Virus record (IMG/VR): IMGVR_UViG_3300030329_003295
Location: 5,286 to 39,294 of that record
DNA length: 34,009 nt
DNA from: a virus
Reading direction: 5' to 3' (one strand)
This document shows, in pieces, positions 2,094-13,180 of the stretch; position 1 is the first letter of the stretch; every line of letters begins with the position of its first letter. The translations under genes and the position numbers were made by a program. A model generated the notes under the pieces. That model was not told the origin of the DNA, searched no databases, and saw only the letters and a list, made by a program, of their open reading frames with translations.

Positions 2094-2674
2094 TATTTAT
2101 CTCCTTTAATTACAGCACGTTGTCCAACATATACGTCAAAAATCTCGGAAGGGCCTGTTTCTTCGCCCTTTTCAATTCGCTCTTTGACCCAAGCTTTAAG
2201 TGTACTCGGATGTACACTTTCCTGTTGTGTTACAGGCACTTTATTTTTTATAGCCAAAGCTTTAAAATCGTAGGCTTGTCTGTCCTCTCCCATTCCAAAA
2301 CTACAGCTAATTACGTTTTTGACCAAATCGCCGTAGCCGTTTTCTCTCAGCCACGCGTGTGCGCTCGGTCTTTGTTCGACTAGAATTGAAACACCGTATA
2401 TATTTTTGATTTCAACTTTAGAACCGTTTTGTAAAGTAAAGGCCTTTAAATTTGCTTCACCCATCGCAGCGGGTAAATCTTCGTCTGTTAATTTCAAAAG
2501 GTTACGTTTTGCAGCTTTTAGATCACGTTCGAGATCAGCTATGTATTTCTGCTCATCTTCAATTTTTTCTGCAATCTGTGCAACATTTTTTAAGTCGTCT
2601 TGCACCACTTCTTGGACTTTTGGAGAAATCGTTTTTCCGAACTCCTTCTCCATTTCAAACAATAAATCGTTCAT
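2093..2674 (-). CDS. Unknown coiled-coil protein, first gene of replication operon
   Basis: A 193-aa protein I do not recognise. Residues about 25-65 are strongly helical, charged and heptad-like, suggesting a coiled coil. A compact mixed middle follows, including ENGYGDLVKNVISCSF. A C-terminal HPSTLKAWVKERIEKGE segment resembles a small helical DNA- or protein-binding element. It starts at ATG 2674 behind AAGGA and is the first gene after a strong leftward promoter. It overlaps the SSB-like gene by one base. A role in replication or recombination, for example as an SSB-interacting mediator or loader, is inferred from position only. Confidence 0.75.
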   Translation of the reverse strand: MNDLLFEMEKEFGKTISPKVQEVVQDDLKNVAQIAEKIEDEQKYIADLERDLKAAKRNLLKLTDEDLPAAMGEANLKAFTLQNGSKVEIKNIYGVSILVEQRPSAHAWLRENGYGDLVKNVISCSFGMGEDRQAYDFKALAIKNKVPVTQQESVHPSTLKAWVKERIEKGEETGPSEIFDVYVGQRAVIKGDK

Positions 2675-2714
2675 CGTTGTTCCTTTGTCGTTGTTAAAAG
2701 CTTTTTTTATAAGC

Positions 2715-2743
2715 TTGACTAGTCTTATATGTTCTTATATACC
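2715..2743 (+). promoter_or_regulatory. Sigma70-like promoter for the rightward helicase gene
   Basis: On the plus strand TTGACT (2715-2720) is followed after 17 bases by TATACC (2738-2743), a moderate promoter match that would start transcription about 20 bases before the helicase ATG. It interleaves with the opposite promoter, and an 8-bp palindrome GACTAGTC (2717-2724) lies in the shared segment. The two promoters probably compete or are jointly controlled (inference). Confidence 0.5.
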
Positions 2744-2752
2744 GTGTGTCAA
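2724..2752 (-). promoter_or_regulatory. Sigma70-like promoter for the leftward replication operon
   Basis: On the minus strand a perfect -35 TTGACA (2747-2752) and a -10 TATAAG (2724-2729) are separated by exactly 17 bases. Transcription would start near 2717, about 43 bases before the ATG of the 193-aa gene. A second CTTATAT copy ten bases away makes a tandem -10-like repeat. This is the best promoter match I saw in the window. Confidence 0.75.
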
Positions 2753-2771
2753 GCAAAAAGGAATTAAAAAA

Positions 2772-4214
2772 ATGTACGAGTTTAAGACCACCCCCTTTTC
2801 TCATCAGAAAAAAACTTTAGATAAGTCTTGGAAAGACACGTTTCATGCACTTTTTATGGAAATGGGAACGGGAAAAACTAAAGTAATTATAGATAATTTA
2901 GCAAAACTTTTTGAAACAAATGAAATTAATTCTGTACTGATTCTTGCCCCCAAAGGTGTTTATGACAATTGGGTGCGGGGCGAAATACCTCTCCATTTGC
3001 CAGATCGAATCAAACGAAAAATAGTAAGATGGCGTCCTACTCACTCTCAAGCCTTCGCAAAAGAACTAGAAGACTTAATCTTTGATAAATTTGAAGGATT
3101 AAAAATTTTAGTAATGAATATTGAAGCGTTGTCCACGGCCCGTGGTCCAAAGACCGCGGGCAGTTTTTTAATACATAATCCAGATAATATGATCGTTGTA
3201 GATGAAAGCACTACAATTAAAAATCGAAAAGCTACTCGAACTAAAAATCTTATGGTTTTAAAGAAATATTCTAGATACAGACGAGTTCTGACCGGGAGCC
3301 CTGTAACTAAAAGTCCCATGGATTTATTTAGTCAATGTATGTTTTTGTCGGAAGAGGCTTTAGGGTTTAGCAGCTATTATGCCTTTCAAAACAGGTATGC
3401 CGTTGTACAACAACGAGTTATGGGTGCGCGTTCTTTTCAAGAAATTGTAAATTATCGTCGTTTAGATGAGTTATCTGGACGTTTAGATCAATTTAGTACG
3501 CGTATTTTAAAAGAGGACTGCCTTGATTTACCAGACAAGTTATACATTAGACGAGAGGTTGAGCTTACAAGAGAGCAGAAGAAAACTTACGAACAGATGA
3601 GAACGCTTGCTTTAGCGGAATTAGAAAGTGGGGAATTAGCTACAACGGCTAGTGTTTTGACCCAGATTATGCGTTTGCAACAAATCTGTTGTGGTCATTT
3701 TACGCCCGACGTGGGTGAAATTAAACTTTTAGAGAATAACCGTCTGAATGAACTTATGGACATTTTGGACGAGGTACAGGGAAAAGCTATTATTTGGGCA
3801 TCATATACCCACGATATTCAACGAATAGCTTCTGCCCTGCGCGACCACTTTGGGCCCGAAGTGGTCGCACTTTATTACGGTGGAACCAAGCAAGAGGACC
3901 GGCAGGAAATAGTTAATACGTTTCAAGACAAAAATTCTGCTTTACGTTTTTTTGTGGCTCAACCAAAAACAGGAGGATACGGCATTACTTTAACGGCAGC
4001 TAATACAGTGATTTATTACAGTAATAGTTATGATCTGGAAACTCGTTTGCAGAGCGAAGATAGGGCCCATCGGATAGGTCAAAAAAACCCTGTAACATAT
4101 GTTGATTTAGTTTCTCCAAATACTATTGATGAGAAAGTTCTCGAAGCTTTAAAAGCTAAAGTTAACTTAGCTGACGCTGTATTGGGAGAAAATGCTAGGG
4201 AGTGGTTTAGATGA
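2772..4214 (+). CDS. SNF2-family DNA helicase/translocase
   Basis: A 480-aa superfamily 2 ATPase and the only plus-strand gene in the window. Visible motifs are a Walker A at about 30-37 (EMGTGKTK), a DEST motif II at about 144-147 replacing the usual DEAH, LTGSPVTKSP as motif III, and the SNF2 signature SEDRAHRIGQKNPVTYVDLV near the C terminus as motif VI. It is short for an SNF2 protein and has little beyond the two motor lobes, like helicases in other marine phages. The likely role is remodelling or unwinding DNA during replication or recombination. ATG 2772 was chosen because it follows AAGGA and the mapped promoter, whereas longer in-frame starts would run antisense through the 193-aa gene. 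Its last 48 bases overlap the convergent transglycosylase gene. Confidence 0.88.
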   Translation: MYEFKTTPFSHQKKTLDKSWKDTFHALFMEMGTGKTKVIIDNLAKLFETNEINSVLILAPKGVYDNWVRGEIPLHLPDRIKRKIVRWRPTHSQAFAKELEDLIFDKFEGLKILVMNIEALSTARGPKTAGSFLIHNPDNMIVVDESTTIKNRKATRTKNLMVLKKYSRYRRVLTGSPVTKSPMDLFSQCMFLSEEALGFSSYYAFQNRYAVVQQRVMGARSFQEIVNYRRLDELSGRLDQFSTRILKEDCLDLPDKLYIRREVELTREQKKTYEQMRTLALAELESGELATTASVLTQIMRLQQICCGHFTPDVGEIKLLENNRLNELMDILDEVQGKAIIWASYTHDIQRIASALRDHFGPEVVALYYGGTKQEDRQEIVNTFQDKNSALRFFVAQPKTGGYGITLTAANTVIYYSNSYDLETRLQSEDRAHRIGQKNPVTYVDLVSPNTIDEKVLEALKAKVNLADAVLGENAREWFR

Positions 4215-5132
4215 ATATTTTTCGTACAAACTAGTTCTTGTAGAAGGGGTAAGGAGAGGCTCCTGCGCTGATTTATCTTCATCTATAACCATTTCATTTA
4301 TAATTCGTTGTTGAGATGGCGCGGCTAAACTTAAATCTGATCGGTTTATGTTTTTAGGTTTTGTGTCTTCCATAACTGTTTTAGAACTAAAAAGCACGGG
4401 AGGGGCTTGGTCCGTTAAAATTTCTTCTTCAAGCACGGGAGGGGCTTGGTCTTCGTTTACTAACGGGGCTTGGCTAAAAACCATGGGTGACGATCTATTT
4501 TCTGTTGAAAAAACATCTAAATTTGCAAACTTAGCTAAGTAATCAGATAAATATGTTCCGCGTTGGGGATTTTTTTTATTATCACTAGGGTTGTATTCGC
4601 CTCCAGTAGTTAAAAATTTAAGGAGTCCCACATTTCCGCCTAAATGAGCCACGGCATACATACCGCTTAAAGTAACCGGAGTTCCGTTAATTTTGGTGCC
4701 AATAAATCTTTCTAAATTGTTTCTTTCAATAAATCTTTTAGTTTGATTTTTGTACCAATTTAAAAATTCCATTTGAACTCTAGGGCTCTTTTTATAATTT
4801 TCAAAAGAAACATCGGAACCCGTTGCTTTTTTAAACTCTTCATATGTTTCAGGCATAGCTTGAGGAAGACCTGCTGCGCCAGTGTCTTTGTTAACTGCGC
4901 CAGGTCTATTAGAACTTTCGCCAAAAATAAGGTTAGCGTCATAGTCAGATAAGCGAATCCCGCCTATTTCTACGGGCCCTCCCCCCGTAAACTGTTGATA
5001 AACGCCAATGCCCCGTGGTCCCTGAAACATATTTCGTGCAGTATTATGCAGGCTTCCGATACCTTGTTTAAGAACGGGACCCCCGTAGGCTTTACCGCCT
5101 AATTCTGGAAAGCCTGATTTATAGTCCGACAT
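4167..5132 (-). CDS. Virion-associated lytic transglycosylase (SLT-like)
   Basis: A 321-aa protein with a soluble lytic transglycosylase core at about residues 62-200. Glu72 in FGESSNRPGAVN followed by GAAGLPQAMPETYEEF matches the E-S and G-x-x-G-x-x-Q-x-x-P-x-T signature of this fold. The enzyme would cleave peptidoglycan locally so DNA can pass during infection. The N terminus carries two GGPV elements (AYGGPV, TGGGPV) also found in neighbouring virion proteins. The C-terminal 100 residues look disordered, with a repeated DQAPPVL element. It ends the long leftward virion gene run and overlaps the helicase gene tail to tail. There is no clear Shine-Dalgarno; the start lies two bases after the upstream stop, suggesting reinitiation. 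Confidence 0.8.
   Translation of the reverse strand: MSDYKSGFPELGGKAYGGPVLKQGIGSLHNTARNMFQGPRGIGVYQQFTGGGPVEIGGIRLSDYDANLIFGESSNRPGAVNKDTGAAGLPQAMPETYEEFKKATGSDVSFENYKKSPRVQMEFLNWYKNQTKRFIERNNLERFIGTKINGTPVTLSGMYAVAHLGGNVGLLKFLTTGGEYNPSDNKKNPQRGTYLSDYLAKFANLDVFSTENRSSPMVFSQAPLVNEDQAPPVLEEEILTDQAPPVLFSSKTVMEDTKPKNINRSDLSLAAPSQQRIINEMVIDEDKSAQEPLLTPSTRTSLYEKYSSKPLPSIFSQYSVS
4392..4451 (-). repeat. 21-bp direct repeat encoding DQAPPVL
   Basis: Two exact 21-bp copies (4392-4412 and 4431-4451) lie 39 bp apart in frame in the transglycosylase tail. A third, decayed copy is near 4463. They encode a proline-rich linker unit. Confidence 0.8.
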
Positions 5133-6191: not shown

Positions 6192-9100
6192 TTAACTCAA
6201 TAAAGATTCAATTCCGCCTTTAGTTGGACGTATCATAGCCGAAACGGAATCATTTGGAAATAGGGAAGCGTACCTAGCACGAGTTTCAGGTTGAGCAAAA
6301 TTGTTTGAAGCTGCACTAGGTACGTTGATTACCGCCGGACGGTTGGTGGGAGTTACCGCCGGGGGTATATTTATTCTAGGATCAATTGGAACGACAGGGA
6401 ATTCATTCCATGGCGCAATAGGGACAGTCCGTGTTTTATTTCTCTCGTCTTCTGCTCTTTTGCTGCTATAAAGATCGCTTAAACTTTCCGAAGTCATGTA
6501 ATCTGGAACATAAGGTAAAGCACCTTTTGAGTAAATAAATCCTCTGGAAATCATGTAATTAACAACATCTTTAGCAATACCGTCCATTTGTAGTTTTGAT
6601 TGGCCTGTTTCCAAAAGATCTATTGCAAGGTCCGGATTTTCTAAAACGTCTAAAAAGAAATCAGCTTTTAACGCTGCGGGCATTGAAGTCATTATTTCTC
6701 TTGCTTGATTAACGGCGGCTGTAGAACCCCGTGTGACAACAGCGAGGGAACCAGTGCCCCCTGCATCTCCGCCAACAGCCCGATATAGTTTAGATGCCGT
6801 GGCAGAACCAAGAGCAGAGGCCAATAATTCAATTGAAGTTCCTAATTTTTGAGCAAGGTCATCCGCGCTTAAAGATTTACCCGAGGCCGCTAACATATCA
6901 ATCTCTCCGATCCGTGTTAACAGCTTATTCATTCTGTCTACTTCTGATTTGGTCATTACGTCATTTTTAACAACCCACTCAGCAAGAGTAATTTTGTTGT
7001 CGCTTCGAGGCATTGGTTTAAAAAACAATTCATGTGCTTTTATAGCACTAAACTGACCATCAGATTTTAATCCGGCTTGGTTTAAAATTGAATTTACCAA
7101 GGAAGATTTGAAGCCTCTTTTTGCCCCATCTCGTGTAACAACTGTTCCATTTTCTAAGGTTTGCTCTACTGGAGCATTCTTTGCTACCCTCCAAAATTTT
7201 TCAAGAAGTGCGCCCGGTTTAGTTTGTGTATTAGAGAAAAGAGTTTCAAAAGGTAACGACATATCTTCCGGGGCAACAAACATATTACCTTCTTTTTTCA
7301 ACAGATAAAACCAATCCTGTTCATCTTTTGCATTTCTCATTCGAGCTTTATTATTTTCAATTACTTTTAAATGCTCACCGTTTGTTTGAATGATTAAATC
7401 AAGATCTTTTTTCATATCGGGAAAAGCTTGAATTAAACCCTTCGCCTCCGAAGTTTCCATCCATCGCTCTAATGATCTTTGGCTAAAGTTTCCCTCTGAG
7501 TCAAATCCAAAATCTCTAAACCGTCTAAGGGCTGTTTCCATGACCCCACGAGTTGTCGTAGATTTATTTAAAGAATCATATAAAGCCTCTTTAAGTTTTG
7601 GAGCATCGTTTAATAAAGCATCATTTGCTTTCAGAACTTCTTTTAACCTAGGTAAATCGATAAATCCGCTTGTCGTATCAAAGGCTTGCATCCGTATTTG
7701 ATTTAGTAACGCACCCGCTTGTTCTGATTCTAAGTTTTGTCCAATTCCTAAACCTGTAGCTTCTTGCAGTTTTAACAAGTTTTCTAAAACAACTCTTTCC
7801 TGTGGAGGTAAAGATTCATCAGCAAGACGGTTTTGAATAGTTCGTATTGCAACAGGAACTTCTACAGTATTTAGATCATCTGCAAATTGTGTGTAAAATC
7901 TTTGTAAATTTTCGTTCAAACGGCTGATGGAGCCAAGGAAATCATCTCTAGCCTGATTTGCCTCAATTGGCGAAAGATTTAAAAGAGTCGTTAATTCTTG
8001 AGCAATCTCAAATTGCCCAATCGCATCAATTGCTCTTGCCCTTTCAGAGGCAAATGAAGAACTAAATACGCTATCAATTACAGATTCTGGAGCAATGCGA
8101 AAAGCACCTGTTCTATCCTTTGCAGTGATTTTTCCTACAAAGGGTTTTGTAAAAGCGTTATTTAATGCCGCTGAATAAGCTCTTGCTAAATCATATTGAC
8201 CTGTATTATCGCCTAAATTTCCTGGAAAACTTTCAAGATCTTCTAAAAAAGCATTTGCCATTTGGTTCAAAAAGTTTGCTTTTTGATTATCTTGTTGCCC
8301 CGCAGCTACTCGCGCTTCATTTAACAATTTTGATCGTCGAAAAGTCAAAGTTTTGCTACTAATAGATCCCTCCGGAGAAACAAGGGGGGCGTCCCCAAAA
8401 ACAGATTTTGCTAATGCAAGAGGGTCTTCCGCAGCATCAAGGCCATCTTCCAGATCATAACCAAGCTCTTCAAGAGTATCCATAACGTATTCATTGATAT
8501 CTTTGTATTGAGGATCTTTTAAAAAACTTGTTCGATCTTTTGGGTCATCTGGCAACATAGAAAACCAAGTCGAGACAAAATTAGGGGCATTTACCACTTT
8601 TCCGTCTGGTAAGGTAATTGTATTAAGAGCACCTCGCCCGTTACGAAAATCCCCAATATTAATTTTATATTCTGGAACTTCTGCCCAAAGTCGTTTTTCA
8701 TTGTTCCGAGCAGATTTAAGACGTTTTAAAATCATATCTTGAAGGTCTTGTGATGCTTTTAATAGATCTGCTTCGTCACCAGACTGAAAAAGTTTTTTCC
8801 TTGCGTCTGTGTATTTTAAAACAGCCGCTGCAACATCTTCCTCCATGTCTTTTGCAAAAACTAGGGAAGCTAATTCTCCTGCAACCCCCATTAAGTCTTT
8901 ATCTTCAGAAGCAAATCCTGCAACAATCATATTTTGCATTATTTCTCTAAATTCTCGGTGGGCCTCTTCGGCTTTTGTTCCAAGTTGATTGATGCTTCTT
9001 TGCATTGAAGGGCTTGAGCTTTGCCCTGTGTTTGCCTGCTGTAAAAGCATAAACCCTAATGAATTTCCTGCTAAAGCTGTTGGCAGTTCAACCATTTCAC

Positions 9101-10466
9101 CTGTGCGGGGATCAATTGTCTCGGTAATTATGTCGCCAAATTCAGCAAATAAATCAGCTTCTGTTACAGGGGGAACGTAACCTTTGTCTCCTTTTTTTCC
9201 TTTTGCGGGAACCACGTTAACGTCAGGACTTTTCGGAATTTCTCTACCTGCTAATACAGCATTCCTAGAAGTGGTATACCACTTTAATCTACGATAAACT
9301 TCCTGTGGGTCTTCAACAGTAGAAATCATTTCGAGGGCATAAACGGCTAATTCAGCTTTTCGTTTATTTCCCAAAGCTTTTGAAGTCTTTGCAACAGCGT
9401 CTTTTCTAAATGCGGAATTAGAAAGTTTTTTTGCGCCTCTAAAAATATTAATTGATGTTGGAATGGCACGTTTTAAAGCAATGTCTGTTAAAACGCCTCC
9501 CGTCGTTGCACCTAAACTTTCTATAAAAAACTCAGCAAAAGCCCCTTCGGCATCACTGCCCAATTCAATAGCTCTAGCGCCTCCGTATGCCGCTCCAAGC
9601 TCCACTAAACCTGTTCTTATAGGCTGCGTTCTTGCTTCAGTTTGAACCCCGGCTAATGATCTTTCGATTGCCCCAGTAAGTCTGGGACCAATCCGTTTTT
9701 TTTCTGCAAAATTTGTAATAAGATTAGAACCAAGGTTTCCTTTAAAAAGATACGGAGCAGCGAACCAACTGCTATAATCCATTAAAGCTTGTCCACCTTT
9801 AAACTTGCCTGCTTGGTCCGGCAAATAAACATCTGCCTCGCCAAAAATAAAATCATTTGCAGATTGAGCAGGTTTTTCAGTCATAATAGTTGATACGAGT
9901 CCCCCTATAATGGGACCTGCAATTCTAAGCGCGGCTGTCCACGGCGTGACTGGGGGTATGCCACTTAATGCATAGTTTGTTGCAGTAGCGCCTGCATAAA
10001 AACGTGGAAAAGAAGTTAGACCAGGAATGATTCTACTTTTCATCCCCTCTCCGAATTTCCCCGCTGTTATTTTTTCTCCAGTAGGACCTCTGGCAAAGTA
10101 TTCAAAAATATCCCCTTCGTTTTTGAAAATATTTGCTTTTGCTTCTGGGGTCAGTTGAGAGCCTGATACAATCTCCCCCGTTCTTGTATTTTTAAAATTA
10201 AAGGTATTTAAGATTGGAGCCGTTCCATCTCTTAATGTAGCAACTGATAAATCATCTGGATTGAGATTATTTTTGCGTATAACATCTCGAACTACTCTGT
10301 TTTCAAGAGCTTGAGCCAATGTCGCATCCGCAAGGTCCCCAAATTGAATATTAAAATTATCCATTTTTTCTTGCGTGTATATTGGATTAGAAAAGTTTGA
10401 AGGGAAGCGTTCAAAATCTTCTTGTTTTGTTAAAGTGGGAACAGTGTTTAAATTTTCTTCCGCCAT
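6192..10466 (-). CDS. Giant internal virion/DNA-ejection type protein
   Basis: At 1424 aa this is the largest gene in the window. It is mostly predicted alpha-helical, with long charged stretches and no enzyme motif that I can see. Residues about 175-195 (PWTAALRIAGPIIGGLVSTIM) are hydrophobic and glycine-rich and could insert into a membrane. Size, composition and position downstream of the tail hub resemble T7 gp16, except that the transglycosylase activity is on a separate downstream gene here. Its ATG overlaps the preceding stop as TAATG. A role as internal core or ejection protein crossing the cell envelope is inferred; direct homology to gp16 is not shown. Confidence 0.72.
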   Translation of the reverse strand: MAEENLNTVPTLTKQEDFERFPSNFSNPIYTQEKMDNFNIQFGDLADATLAQALENRVVRDVIRKNNLNPDDLSVATLRDGTAPILNTFNFKNTRTGEIVSGSQLTPEAKANIFKNEGDIFEYFARGPTGEKITAGKFGEGMKSRIIPGLTSFPRFYAGATATNYALSGIPPVTPWTAALRIAGPIIGGLVSTIMTEKPAQSANDFIFGEADVYLPDQAGKFKGGQALMDYSSWFAAPYLFKGNLGSNLITNFAEKKRIGPRLTGAIERSLAGVQTEARTQPIRTGLVELGAAYGGARAIELGSDAEGAFAEFFIESLGATTGGVLTDIALKRAIPTSINIFRGAKKLSNSAFRKDAVAKTSKALGNKRKAELAVYALEMISTVEDPQEVYRRLKWYTTSRNAVLAGREIPKSPDVNVVPAKGKKGDKGYVPPVTEADLFAEFGDIITETIDPRTGEMVELPTALAGNSLGFMLLQQANTGQSSSPSMQRSINQLGTKAEEAHREFREIMQNMIVAGFASEDKDLMGVAGELASLVFAKDMEEDVAAAVLKYTDARKKLFQSGDEADLLKASQDLQDMILKRLKSARNNEKRLWAEVPEYKINIGDFRNGRGALNTITLPDGKVVNAPNFVSTWFSMLPDDPKDRTSFLKDPQYKDINEYVMDTLEELGYDLEDGLDAAEDPLALAKSVFGDAPLVSPEGSISSKTLTFRRSKLLNEARVAAGQQDNQKANFLNQMANAFLEDLESFPGNLGDNTGQYDLARAYSAALNNAFTKPFVGKITAKDRTGAFRIAPESVIDSVFSSSFASERARAIDAIGQFEIAQELTTLLNLSPIEANQARDDFLGSISRLNENLQRFYTQFADDLNTVEVPVAIRTIQNRLADESLPPQERVVLENLLKLQEATGLGIGQNLESEQAGALLNQIRMQAFDTTSGFIDLPRLKEVLKANDALLNDAPKLKEALYDSLNKSTTTRGVMETALRRFRDFGFDSEGNFSQRSLERWMETSEAKGLIQAFPDMKKDLDLIIQTNGEHLKVIENNKARMRNAKDEQDWFYLLKKEGNMFVAPEDMSLPFETLFSNTQTKPGALLEKFWRVAKNAPVEQTLENGTVVTRDGAKRGFKSSLVNSILNQAGLKSDGQFSAIKAHELFFKPMPRSDNKITLAEWVVKNDVMTKSEVDRMNKLLTRIGEIDMLAASGKSLSADDLAQKLGTSIELLASALGSATASKLYRAVGGDAGGTGSLAVVTRGSTAAVNQAREIMTSMPAALKADFFLDVLENPDLAIDLLETGQSKLQMDGIAKDVVNYMISRGFIYSKGALPYVPDYMTSESLSDLYSSKRAEDERNKTRTVPIAPWNEFPVVPIDPRINIPPAVTPTNRPAVINVPSAASNNFAQPETRARYASLFPNDSVSAMIRPTKGGIESLLS

Positions 10467-13180
10467 TATTCGTATTCACTCTCGGTTTGTGCTAGAGCCT
10501 CTGCCATACTTTTTGAAGAAGCTGAGTCAGTGATTCTAACCATTGCTAGAACACCGTCTAACTCTCGTATTTTTGCCATTGTTGAACCAATATTTTCTAA
10601 AGCCGCCGGATCTTCATCGGCAAGTGATTGTAACAATCTTTGCCTTTGTTGCTGCATCATGTTTACAAGTTTTTTAAATTTTTCCGCTTCGGTTTTAGGG
10701 TTTGTGAACACGTTGGTTGCTTTCGGTAAAATCCTCTCAACTCGTTGAATGTCATAAACAGCTAATCTTGGATTAACTGTAAGGGCCGAAACAGCAATTA
10801 AATTAAATCTTTCAAGCGCCAAACGAGCTTCTTCAGTATCTTTAAAAGTTTCTGAGAAAAATTCTGGAGCAATCGTACCACCAATATTGTTTGCAAGAGC
10901 AAACAGATTTGAAAAGAAACCCGTGCCTTTTCTAGCATCTTCTTCCGTAATATCTCCATAAAGGTTTTGAATAGTTTCTTTTTCTAGTTTTCGTAAAGCT
11001 TTCTGATCTTCATCGGGTAATGGAACTACTTCAGGGTTACCATCTGCGCCCACAACTGTATGAACATAAACCTTTGTATCAAGATAACTTGTGGCTTCTC
11101 CTAAACGCTCTTTTCCGTAATTTATAATTTTTTGTTTCTTGATCGTTGAGTAAACGTCTGAGTTACCAAGAGATTTGGCCTCCACGTCTTTCAATAACTT
11201 CATTACAGGATTACCTTGTGCATCAGTCTCAACGAATGTGTTATTATCATAACTTGTAATAATTTTACCTTGATTAGTAATATATGCTTGTGGATTTACA
11301 CTTTCAGTGCCAACCTTCTTCGCTTCAGCAGATCCTTCTTCTCTTAAATTTGCTTCGTTAACTTGTTCCTGTAGTGCTTGACCTTCAGGAGATCCAATTG
11401 CAGCTATTGTTTGCGTAATTTTACCATCTGGACCTTTGATGGTAAATTTCATCAATCCGCTAGTGGAAGCTTTAAGTTCGCTTTCTTGTTTTTCCAAAGC
11501 TAATTTTTTATTTTTATAATCTTGATCGAAATATATTTTAAGTTTGTCGAGAGTAAGTCTTTCGTCGCCTTGAAGTAGCCTATGTTCTTCAAACGCCTTT
11601 GTAATCATCATATCAGCGTGTTTTAAAGCACGATCTTTTTCCGCCTCACTTAAATCAAGGTTTTTAATCTTTTCGTCAAACTCTCTTCGTAAAAGAGCTT
11701 CTTCTGATCTAAAATCTCTATCTTTTTGGTTTTCAAATTGAGTGGCAATTCTTGAAAGTGAGTTTTGAGCCGCTTGAAAGTTTCTTTCGCTTTGTGCTGC
11801 AACTCTATCAATCGCTGCCTTTTTATTTATAACTGCAAATTCAAAATCTTGTGCGTTTTCAATTTTTGCTAATTCATACTTGTTTTTAGCACCTAATACT
11901 TCTAATTCATTACTTAAATCTAATTGTGCGTTTAATGTAGCCAACTCTTTTTGAGCCGACGCTAATCGATTAGCAGCAAGGACTTGTGCCTGCCTGTCTT
12001 TACTATTTTCAGCCGCTGTTGCTGTAATTTTTAAATTCGCAAGTTTTTCTTCAATATTTAATTTTTCATTTTGTAGTTCTCTTCTTAACTGAGCCTCTGA
12101 CGTTGCAGCTCCCTGCCTTGCTTTTATTTCTATATTAGTCAAATTAATACGATTTAAGTTTTCTTGTGCTAATTTATTCATCTCAAAAGCTCTGCCTTGG
12201 GCACCCGCCAATTGTCTTTCGGCGCTTTCAAGAGCACTTAAATCCATTTGTTGTTCTTGTTGTTTTTGCACATCTTTCATCTGTTGAAACCGTGCGGCCC
12301 GTTCACCAATTCTAGGGGCAAGTTGGGATTCAGCTAATGAATTTGCTAATCTTTCAGCTACAGAGCGTCCGTCAGTAGATCCTGCAAATTGTAAGCCTGC
12401 CTGCGCTATGTCAAACAACATCTGAGCTTGAGTCAACCGCTTCTGTTCTTCAAGTTGCGCTGCTCGTTCTTGAGGTGCTCCCAAGATACCGCGTCGGATT
12501 CCTTGGGCCTCTTCATAATAAGGCATTAAGGACGTGCCCAAATCCAGAGCTACAGGCTCTTGAGCCTTTGGTCCACCGGGAGGAGTACCCGTCTGAAACT
12601 TTCGGACCATCACAGGTCCACCTTGGTTAAAATTTACGGGTGGAGTGTTGCCCGCCCCCATTGTCATAAGTTCACCAATACCTTGTGACATCGGAGCGTC
12701 TTCCGACATATCCGTATCACCAACAAGACCCATCATCAATTCGCCTATGCCGCTATCTAAAGCACCTTGTTCAGTCATCATTATGGTAGGTTGAACCATA
12801 GTCAAAACACTTTCAGGAGTTCGCATAGCGTCTTCCTCACCAACAAAACTGGCAAGCTCTTGATATCGTGCCTCTAATGGAGCTTCGTTGCCCCTAAAAG
12901 CATCAATTAAACCTTTTGGATCTTGGGCCGCGTCTATACCTTCGTCAACCTGCGCCATGTACTCTTCGCCCAGTTGTGCCCCGTCCATTGCTACGTCTTG
13001 TAACATAGCTTCAGGAGCAACAACCTCGTTGCCCATAGGCATGGGCATGGGCATGGGCATGGGTGGCCCGTCGGGCATGGGCATGGGAGAAGGTGCCGCT
13101 TCCATCGAACCACCCATTTGTTTAAACAGAGGGCGTTGCATAACAGAACCTCCCCCCATATATTGTTTATACATACTCAT
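10466..13180 (-). CDS. Coiled-coil virion protein, ejection type
   Basis: A 904-aa protein. The N-terminal 200 residues are low in complexity, Met/Pro/Gly/Asp-rich, with GGGSV, GGSM and GGPV elements and a Pro-Met repeat. Residues about 230-560 are a very long helical, Ala/Gln/Glu/Lys-rich region consistent with a coiled coil. The C-terminal part is mixed and more compact. It resembles a gp15-like internal virion protein by place and length only. The start at 13180 has a strong AAGGAGG Shine-Dalgarno about ten bases upstream. It overlaps the 1424-aa gene by one base. A structural or tail-fibre-adhesin alternative cannot be excluded. Confidence 0.72.
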   Translation of the reverse strand: MSMYKQYMGGGSVMQRPLFKQMGGSMEAAPSPMPMPDGPPMPMPMPMPMGNEVVAPEAMLQDVAMDGAQLGEEYMAQVDEGIDAAQDPKGLIDAFRGNEAPLEARYQELASFVGEEDAMRTPESVLTMVQPTIMMTEQGALDSGIGELMMGLVGDTDMSEDAPMSQGIGELMTMGAGNTPPVNFNQGGPVMVRKFQTGTPPGGPKAQEPVALDLGTSLMPYYEEAQGIRRGILGAPQERAAQLEEQKRLTQAQMLFDIAQAGLQFAGSTDGRSVAERLANSLAESQLAPRIGERAARFQQMKDVQKQQEQQMDLSALESAERQLAGAQGRAFEMNKLAQENLNRINLTNIEIKARQGAATSEAQLRRELQNEKLNIEEKLANLKITATAAENSKDRQAQVLAANRLASAQKELATLNAQLDLSNELEVLGAKNKYELAKIENAQDFEFAVINKKAAIDRVAAQSERNFQAAQNSLSRIATQFENQKDRDFRSEEALLRREFDEKIKNLDLSEAEKDRALKHADMMITKAFEEHRLLQGDERLTLDKLKIYFDQDYKNKKLALEKQESELKASTSGLMKFTIKGPDGKITQTIAAIGSPEGQALQEQVNEANLREEGSAEAKKVGTESVNPQAYITNQGKIITSYDNNTFVETDAQGNPVMKLLKDVEAKSLGNSDVYSTIKKQKIINYGKERLGEATSYLDTKVYVHTVVGADGNPEVVPLPDEDQKALRKLEKETIQNLYGDITEEDARKGTGFFSNLFALANNIGGTIAPEFFSETFKDTEEARLALERFNLIAVSALTVNPRLAVYDIQRVERILPKATNVFTNPKTEAEKFKKLVNMMQQQRQRLLQSLADEDPAALENIGSTMAKIRELDGVLAMVRITDSASSKSMAEALAQTESEYE
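13037..13087 (-). repeat. GGGCAT hexanucleotide repeat encoding Met-Pro
   Basis: Three exact GGGCAT units and one near copy, a short interruption, then two more units give an alternating Pro-Met tract near the N terminus of the 904-aa protein. The six-base unit keeps frame on slippage. Confidence 0.8.

Follow-up and report, generated by a model that had tools for sequence, protein, structure and literature searches.

Face-to-face promoter-like sites with two outer −35 boxes, conserved between a helicase gene and divergent leftward genes in groups of related phages

Overlapping and bidirectional promoters are already known. In the prokaryotic bidirectional promoters described by Warman and Grainger, a distance of 7-25 bp separates the divergent starts, which centre on one −10 element common to both (PMC10268837), 18 bp between starts being given as the commonest arrangement (PMC10268837, PMC12825309). 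For the divergent promoters Pc and Pr of pLS20, which are of unequal strength, the authors favour coinciding boxes, with a −10 lying on a −35, and the weak Pr needs the regulator RcoLS20 (PMC4207663). Our literature search found no report in phages of the promoter arrangement described below, and the word 'promoter' is absent from the main text of a paper on uncultured HTVC023P-type phages (PMC9599517). Here we analysed a phage intergenic gap in which two promoter-like sites face each other on the same DNA; what is new is a −35-anchored geometry conserved across phage groups, together with a predicted hairpin with compensatory base changes in the leader of the leftward RNA.

The window, that is, the whole 34,009-bp stretch analysed here, is taken from a virus record of 39,294 bp (IMGVR_UViG_3300030329_003295), in which it covers bases 5286-39294. 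Its long ORFs and all its genes identified by family searches read leftward, except a gene for an SNF2-type helicase (2772-4214, + strand). The divergent partner of the latter, the first leftward gene (2093-2674, − strand), encodes a Pam3 gp33-like DUF7307 protein of the gam or host-nuclease-inhibitor type, and is followed by the genes for a Pam3 gp34-like protein (1317-2093, − strand) and a primase (3-1280, − strand) that extends past the left edge of the window; beyond the primase, family searches identified a UvrD-like helicase, DUF6378 and a family A DNA polymerase. A preliminary description of this DNA had placed an SSB in the leftward operon; no SSB family was matched among the leftward genes, which are instead the gam-like, gp34-like and primase genes just named. 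The segment which that description had singled out, 2675-2771, is precisely the 97-bp intergenic gap between the gam-like and helicase genes, and it carries a ribosome-binding-site-like AAAGGAA for each of them (2680-2686 on the − strand and 2757-2763 on the + strand, respectively). When the first 12 kb of the window were searched against phage records for near-identical DNA, nothing matched.

Several further features of the surroundings were recorded. The gene divergent from the helicase varies by phage group (gam-like, FELY or VQE; L091, L095 and related loci) with the helicase constant, and HTVC027P and 023Pt_psg01 have an extra gene between helicase and gam. At its other end the helicase gene overlaps a converging leftward gene (4167-5132) tail to tail by 48 bp (4167-4214); the corresponding overlaps in relatives are 4 bp in L004, 4 bp in HTVC027P and 38 bp in HTVC023P. 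The leftward ORFs of 1424 and 904 aa at 6192-13180, both very large, matched nothing in PHROGs or Pfam at an E threshold of 0.001. In the record bases left of the window (L043:880-1035), two leftward CTTGAC promoter-like sites share CTTGAC-N-TCTCCCATACA, and between them lies a strong hairpin resembling an intrinsic terminator (GAGGGAAGG...CCTTCCCTC, then eight T); the intervening stretch folds well (70 nt, z −2.9, 3/200 shuffles), and it may represent either a small RNA of the phage or the point at which the leftward operon ends.

The gap holds two opposed −35/−10 pairs of sigma70 type. The rightward site combines TTGACT (2715-2720, + strand; CTTGAC at 2714-2719) with TATACC (2738-2743, + strand), and the leftward site TTGACA (2747-2752, − strand; CTTGAC at 2753-2748) with TATAAG (2724-2729, − strand). 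Each has a 17-bp spacer, and the two lie face to face within 38 bp (2715-2743 rightward, 2752-2724 leftward) in exact mirror symmetry about 2733.5 (2715+2752 = 2720+2747 = 2738+2729 = 2743+2724 = 5467). The two −35 elements form the inverted repeat GCTTGAC (2713-2719)/GTCAAGC (2748-2754), with 8 bp between the two −10 boxes. Transcription is predicted to start at ~2750 rightward and at about 2717-2716 leftward, the starts being 33 bp apart and each −35 overlapping or abutting the opposite promoter's predicted start (~2717, ~2750). By consensus match the leftward site scores 11/12 and the rightward, with its poor −10, 9/12. The preliminary description thus had the boxes, spacers and 38-bp overlap correct in every letter, and its ranking of leftward as the stronger promoter and rightward as the weaker agrees with these scores. 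A rule-based promoter scan listed neither site, because it requires a final T in the −10 box, which both lack. Compared by eye with the published sigma70 consensus of the alphaproteobacterium S. meliloti, CTTGAC-N17-CTATAT (PMC2873474), CTTGAC is perfect on both strands and the second box after N17 reads ATATAC or ATATAA, 4/6 each.

The pattern CTTGAC-N16-18-TATA, expected 0.08 times in the 34-kb window, occurs there twice, both times in this gap. When the gap was dinucleotide-shuffled 300 times, no shuffle equalled its best leftward site, 19 equalled the best rightward site alone, and none equalled both jointly. An interleaved pair as good as that of the window was likewise found in 0 of 1000 gap shuffles, and again in 0 of 1000 with 15-base flanks on each side, so that the observed pair is more than chance.

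Conservation was assessed in two sets of relatives. An IMG/VR scan with the helicase gave 41 loci, of which 39 gaps, plus the window and four named phages, made up a first round of 44 gaps (L040, with no leftward ORF found, and L041 were omitted, and the gap of L033 was cut at a fixed length). Clustering at 90% identity sorted these into 18 clusters, of which IMG/VR supplied 14 (window included), and the interleaved pair was present in 14/14 of the latter, each equalled by 0-12 of 1000 shuffles; the combined Fisher value of 5.6e-22 is overstated, as the clusters share ancestry. A profile scan then supplied a wider set, the best 80 of 599 further relatives, which yielded 65 gaps in 55 new clusters, a few of these being contigs already in the first round; the other 15 loci gave no gap (seven had no ATG, eight no nearby leftward ORF). 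The total was 69 clusters, 62 of them testable, the remaining seven being six gaps longer than 260 bp and L077, in which the start-codon choice cut the gap to 25 bp and no pair was seen. The pair reached a shuffle frequency of ≤0.01 in 40 of the 62 testable clusters from the best 80 of 599 relatives and the first round, at helicase identities down to 53%, and 33 of all 69 clusters had both −35 boxes at ≥5/6 and both −10 boxes at ≥4/6. L021, at 12/1000 within the first-round 14, scored 5/400 in the wider set, just over the 0.01 line, and L062, whose gap the start-codon rule has probably made too short, was scored as a miss.

Alignment of the gap in related phages had been set beforehand as a refutation test, with 'no conservation of the boxes' as the adverse result, and the boxes proved to be conserved. 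Across 15 aligned gaps the −35 arms are the best-kept letters: the right arm GTCAA is invariant (15/15 representatives), the left arm reads TTGAC or TGGAC in all but L029 (14/15), and most other columns drift. Weak boxes occur in the L015 and L021 groups (TGGACG-17-TATCCT, TTGACA-18-GAGACT). Among the named phages, 023Pt_psg01 carries the pair (0/1000 shuffles; 4/1000 with 15-base flanks), and HTVC027P has TTGACT-17-TATATA facing TTTACT-18-TATAAT with overlapping −10 boxes (12/1000 with 15-base flanks, 306/1000 with a tightly cut gap). HTVC023P and DSL-LC04 showed no significant pair despite their divergent genes (430 and 274 of 1000; with flanks 732 and 328). When clusters were sorted by divergent partner, typed by length and motif, the pair was found in 30/36 tested with a gam-size partner, 8/13 of the FELY type, 1/10 of the VQE type and 1/3 others, indicating that it outlives exchange of the partner gene and that the VQE-partner group does without it. 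A promoter-like CTTGAC match in L004 at 1533 (+ strand) was set aside as lying inside a leftward gene; similar + strand matches occur in L002, L003, L006, L007, L032 and L038.

Gaps in the 40 pair-bearing clusters measure 54-105 bp. The outer −35 span is 37-42 bp in 38 of them (41 bp in 19), with L130 at 33 and L029 at 53, and the predicted starts are 28-35 bp apart in 37, with L099 at 37, L130 at 38 and L029 at 18. Borderline pairs were also seen in three longer gaps in which the start-codon choice is uncertain (L094, 211 bp; L113, 181 bp; L129, 202 bp), at 11, 1 and 1 of 400 shuffles, and at 9, 5 and 5 of 400 on repeat scoring. Since span and spacers change and both promoters stay, selection would appear to act on the promoters and not on one fixed dyad operator.

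These values place the locus beside the Warman-Grainger promoters (PMC10268837), with which it shares pseudo-symmetric DNA and, by prediction, a polymerase that binds in two orientations, divergent RNAs and steric exclusion. It differs from them in that the window's −10 boxes are 8 bp apart, neither shared nor overlapping, in that its symmetry resides in two full −35 boxes, and in that predicted starts 33 bp apart (28-38 bp in 39 of the 40 pair-bearing clusters) lie outside the published 7-25 bp. The L029 cluster (18 bp; 0/1000 shuffles) and HTVC027P (21 bp), both with overlapping −10 boxes, fall within the published range. With Pc/Pr of pLS20 (PMC4207663) the window has in common divergent promoters of unequal strength on one stretch of DNA; unlike that system, it has both −35 boxes near consensus and no known regulator flanking.

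At the 5′ end of the leftward RNA, folding predicts a hairpin, AAGCTT-ATAAAAA-AAGCTT (2698-2716, − strand), whose stem starts at 2716, next to the predicted start at 2717, and which overlaps the first two bases of the rightward −35. The conserved leader segment UUUUAACAACGA (2688-2699, − strand) shares its first two bases with the end of the 3′ stem arm. A conserved CUUUAAYNACGA lies downstream of the hairpin; over partly redundant loci totalling 828 kb, TTTAAYNACGA has 31 matches, and a loose rule places 26 of these in leader-like surroundings. A hairpin of 4-7 pairs is possible in 24/24 distinct leftward leaders examined, and for each of 13 representatives between 9 and 146 of 2000 shuffles equalled it (Fisher 1e-11, kinship ignored). 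The fourth stem pair varies (CG, GC, AT, TA or GU), and when arms were swapped among 10 distinct stems the observed pairing was reached in 1/5000, the arms having been hand-fitted to the structure and leaning towards it. Covariation was tested in the ungapped length class (17 leaders, 16 distinct), in which 100% of cells pair, 8 cells have changed on both sides (2.0 in shuffles), the covariation is 0.317 versus 0.130 (0/500 shuffles), and sliding the partner drops pairing to 40-70%. Three of the five stem pairs are invariant in this class, and its counts of pairs with a double change (2; 91/500 shuffles) and of further pair types (4; 122/500) are not rare. Single-sequence folding energies are modestly low (mean z −1.16, 13 leaders). 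RNAalifold returned no structure on a separate, unadjusted MAFFT alignment of 17 leaders, in our opinion owing to misalignment of hairpins differing in register and loop length, which is why structures were compared by arms and within the ungapped class; an Rfam scan of 2500-3000 gave two matches, both far under the family gathering scores.

Across the 40 pair-bearing clusters, the hairpin was found at a shuffle frequency of ≤0.05 in 25 leftward leaders, with the stem starting 1-6 bases past the predicted start, and in none of the rightward (helicase) leaders, 26 of which were long enough to test. All 25 clusters belong to the gam-size group; the hairpin of L029 (18/2000 shuffles with its first-round leader) is absent from this count, the leader start having been misplaced in that scan. 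Stem-loops at the 5′ terminus, of the type found in ompA and papA, stabilise mRNA and shield it from 5′-end-dependent decay, and the leader hairpin is probably, and most simply, a putative 5′-end mRNA stabiliser. Like the ompA and papA elements, it is a short stem-loop a few bases from the predicted 5′ end and ahead of the ribosome-binding site; it differs in overlapping the −35 of an opposite promoter, and stabilisation is putative here.

The same leader could be read otherwise, the hairpin and the conserved UUUAAYNACGA forming an antitermination signal of the rrn or lambda boxB-boxA type for reading the long leftward operon. In some relatives (L051, L064) the hairpin is followed by UCUUUAACAA, which we take to resemble the E. 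coli rrn boxA, a partial match present in some clusters, and 26 of the 31 motif matches in those partly redundant 828 kb lie in a leader; however, the stem and loop differ widely in sequence among leaders, the 3′ stem arm and the boxA-like match share bases, and L034, L042 and the L024 group deviate from the motif, which leaves this reading very unlikely. A regulated switch, in which a phage repressor or activator would pick the direction by binding either the −35 inverted repeat or a palindrome within the segment common to both promoters, seems to us improbable, if less so. Overlapping divergent promoters do act as switches elsewhere (pLS20 Pc/Pr), the GCTTGAC/GTCAAGC repeat is well conserved with its 41-bp span in 19/40 pair-bearing clusters, and a 62-aa ORF after the DNA polymerase gene (L043:1036-1224, − strand), ~6.7 kb off in the leftward direction, is a possible regulator: it is ribbon-helix-helix-like at 21.2 bits, under the Pfam cut-off of 26, has no PHROGs match, and is the single, weak candidate for a DNA-binding protein among the ORFs scanned in the left part of the record. 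Against a switch, the arms are already accounted for as −35 boxes, and their distance varies (37-42 bp, extremes 33 and 53), which is ill-suited to a rigid dyad operator. The two elements stressed in the preliminary description, an 8-bp palindrome GACTAGTC (2717-2724) and a CTTATAT repeat at a helical turn (2724-2730 and 2734-2740, 10 bp apart), are each present in 1/44 gaps, that of the window alone, and are therefore unlikely to be control elements. We rejected the palindrome as an operator, one match being ordinary by chance (0.23 expected; found in 23/100 shuffles), and likewise the repeat, which in essence is the two −10 regions. A lambda-type switch has an adjacent repressor gene and conserved operators; here the neighbours are gam-like and helicase genes, neither of them a known regulator. 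For HTVC027P the authors report that all early expressed genes are of unknown function (PMC12753301), which would leave the annotated helicase and primase genes of that phage outside the early set. Regulated strand choice and a dedicated early control switch, both raised in the preliminary description, find no support.

That the boxes arose by chance in AT-rich intergenic DNA and lack promoter function is more improbable still: weak matches do arise easily in such gaps (430/1000 in HTVC023P) and the rightward box set by itself is not rare (19/300), but the joint shuffle tests and the conservation across relatives speak against it. We favour, with a probability of about 0.68, a constitutive two-way promoter for a host sigma70-type RNA polymerase with mutually exclusive footprints, serving the helicase to the right and the replication genes to the left, with the leader hairpin probably protecting the leftward RNA. 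The outer inverted repeat would supply one −35 box per orientation with both −10 boxes between them, so that polymerase would occupy one orientation at a time and never both; the geometry makes double occupancy implausible, as had been proposed. The single site would feed the helicase rightward and gam, gp34, primase and perhaps the UvrD-like helicase and DNA polymerase leftward, the output ratio being set by relative promoter strength, predicted from consensus match to favour leftward in the window phage, and the short hairpin would probably guard the 5′ end of the leftward RNA. The putative host sigma70 assignment draws on the boxes, the alphaproteobacterial consensus and the Pelagibacter-infecting named relatives. 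As this accounts for the data with no dedicated repressor or switch, none is needed. A serious contender, at somewhat under even odds, is that two independently useful promoters were packed together by genome economy, their overlap being incidental and functionally uncoupled. Gaps of 54-105 bp in the pair-bearing clusters leave scarcely space for two separate promoters and leaders, and interleaving need not itself be selected because short gaps could force overlap. At all five bidirectional promoters tested in E. coli, basal transcription was too low for competition, so exclusion may not matter in practice; there, activating transcription one way could repress it the other way (PMC12825309). 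Against economy as the whole cause, borderline pairs also occur in the longer, start-uncertain gaps of L094, L113 and L129, and in L029 the geometry differs and the overlap is still present. A more ambitious extension of the two-way promoter, which we hold only tentatively and think unlikely in full, is a conserved module in which the −35-anchored, exclusive promoter would fix the helicase to replication-operon transcript ratio, and a co-evolved hairpin, lying partly in the opposite −35 region, would unbalance output through one RNA by stability or antitermination, the geometry persisting despite partner exchange.

In bacteria a shared −10 is what usually marks a bidirectional promoter, and such promoters can seem incidental. 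The 40 diverged gap clusters that keep two full −35 boxes, with the L029 cluster and HTVC027P as relatives of the overlapping −10 form, make up a natural series for testing whether competition between polymerases at overlapping promoters has a function or only follows from genome compactness. They also provide promoters that can be recognised in groups of marine phages most of which are uncultured.
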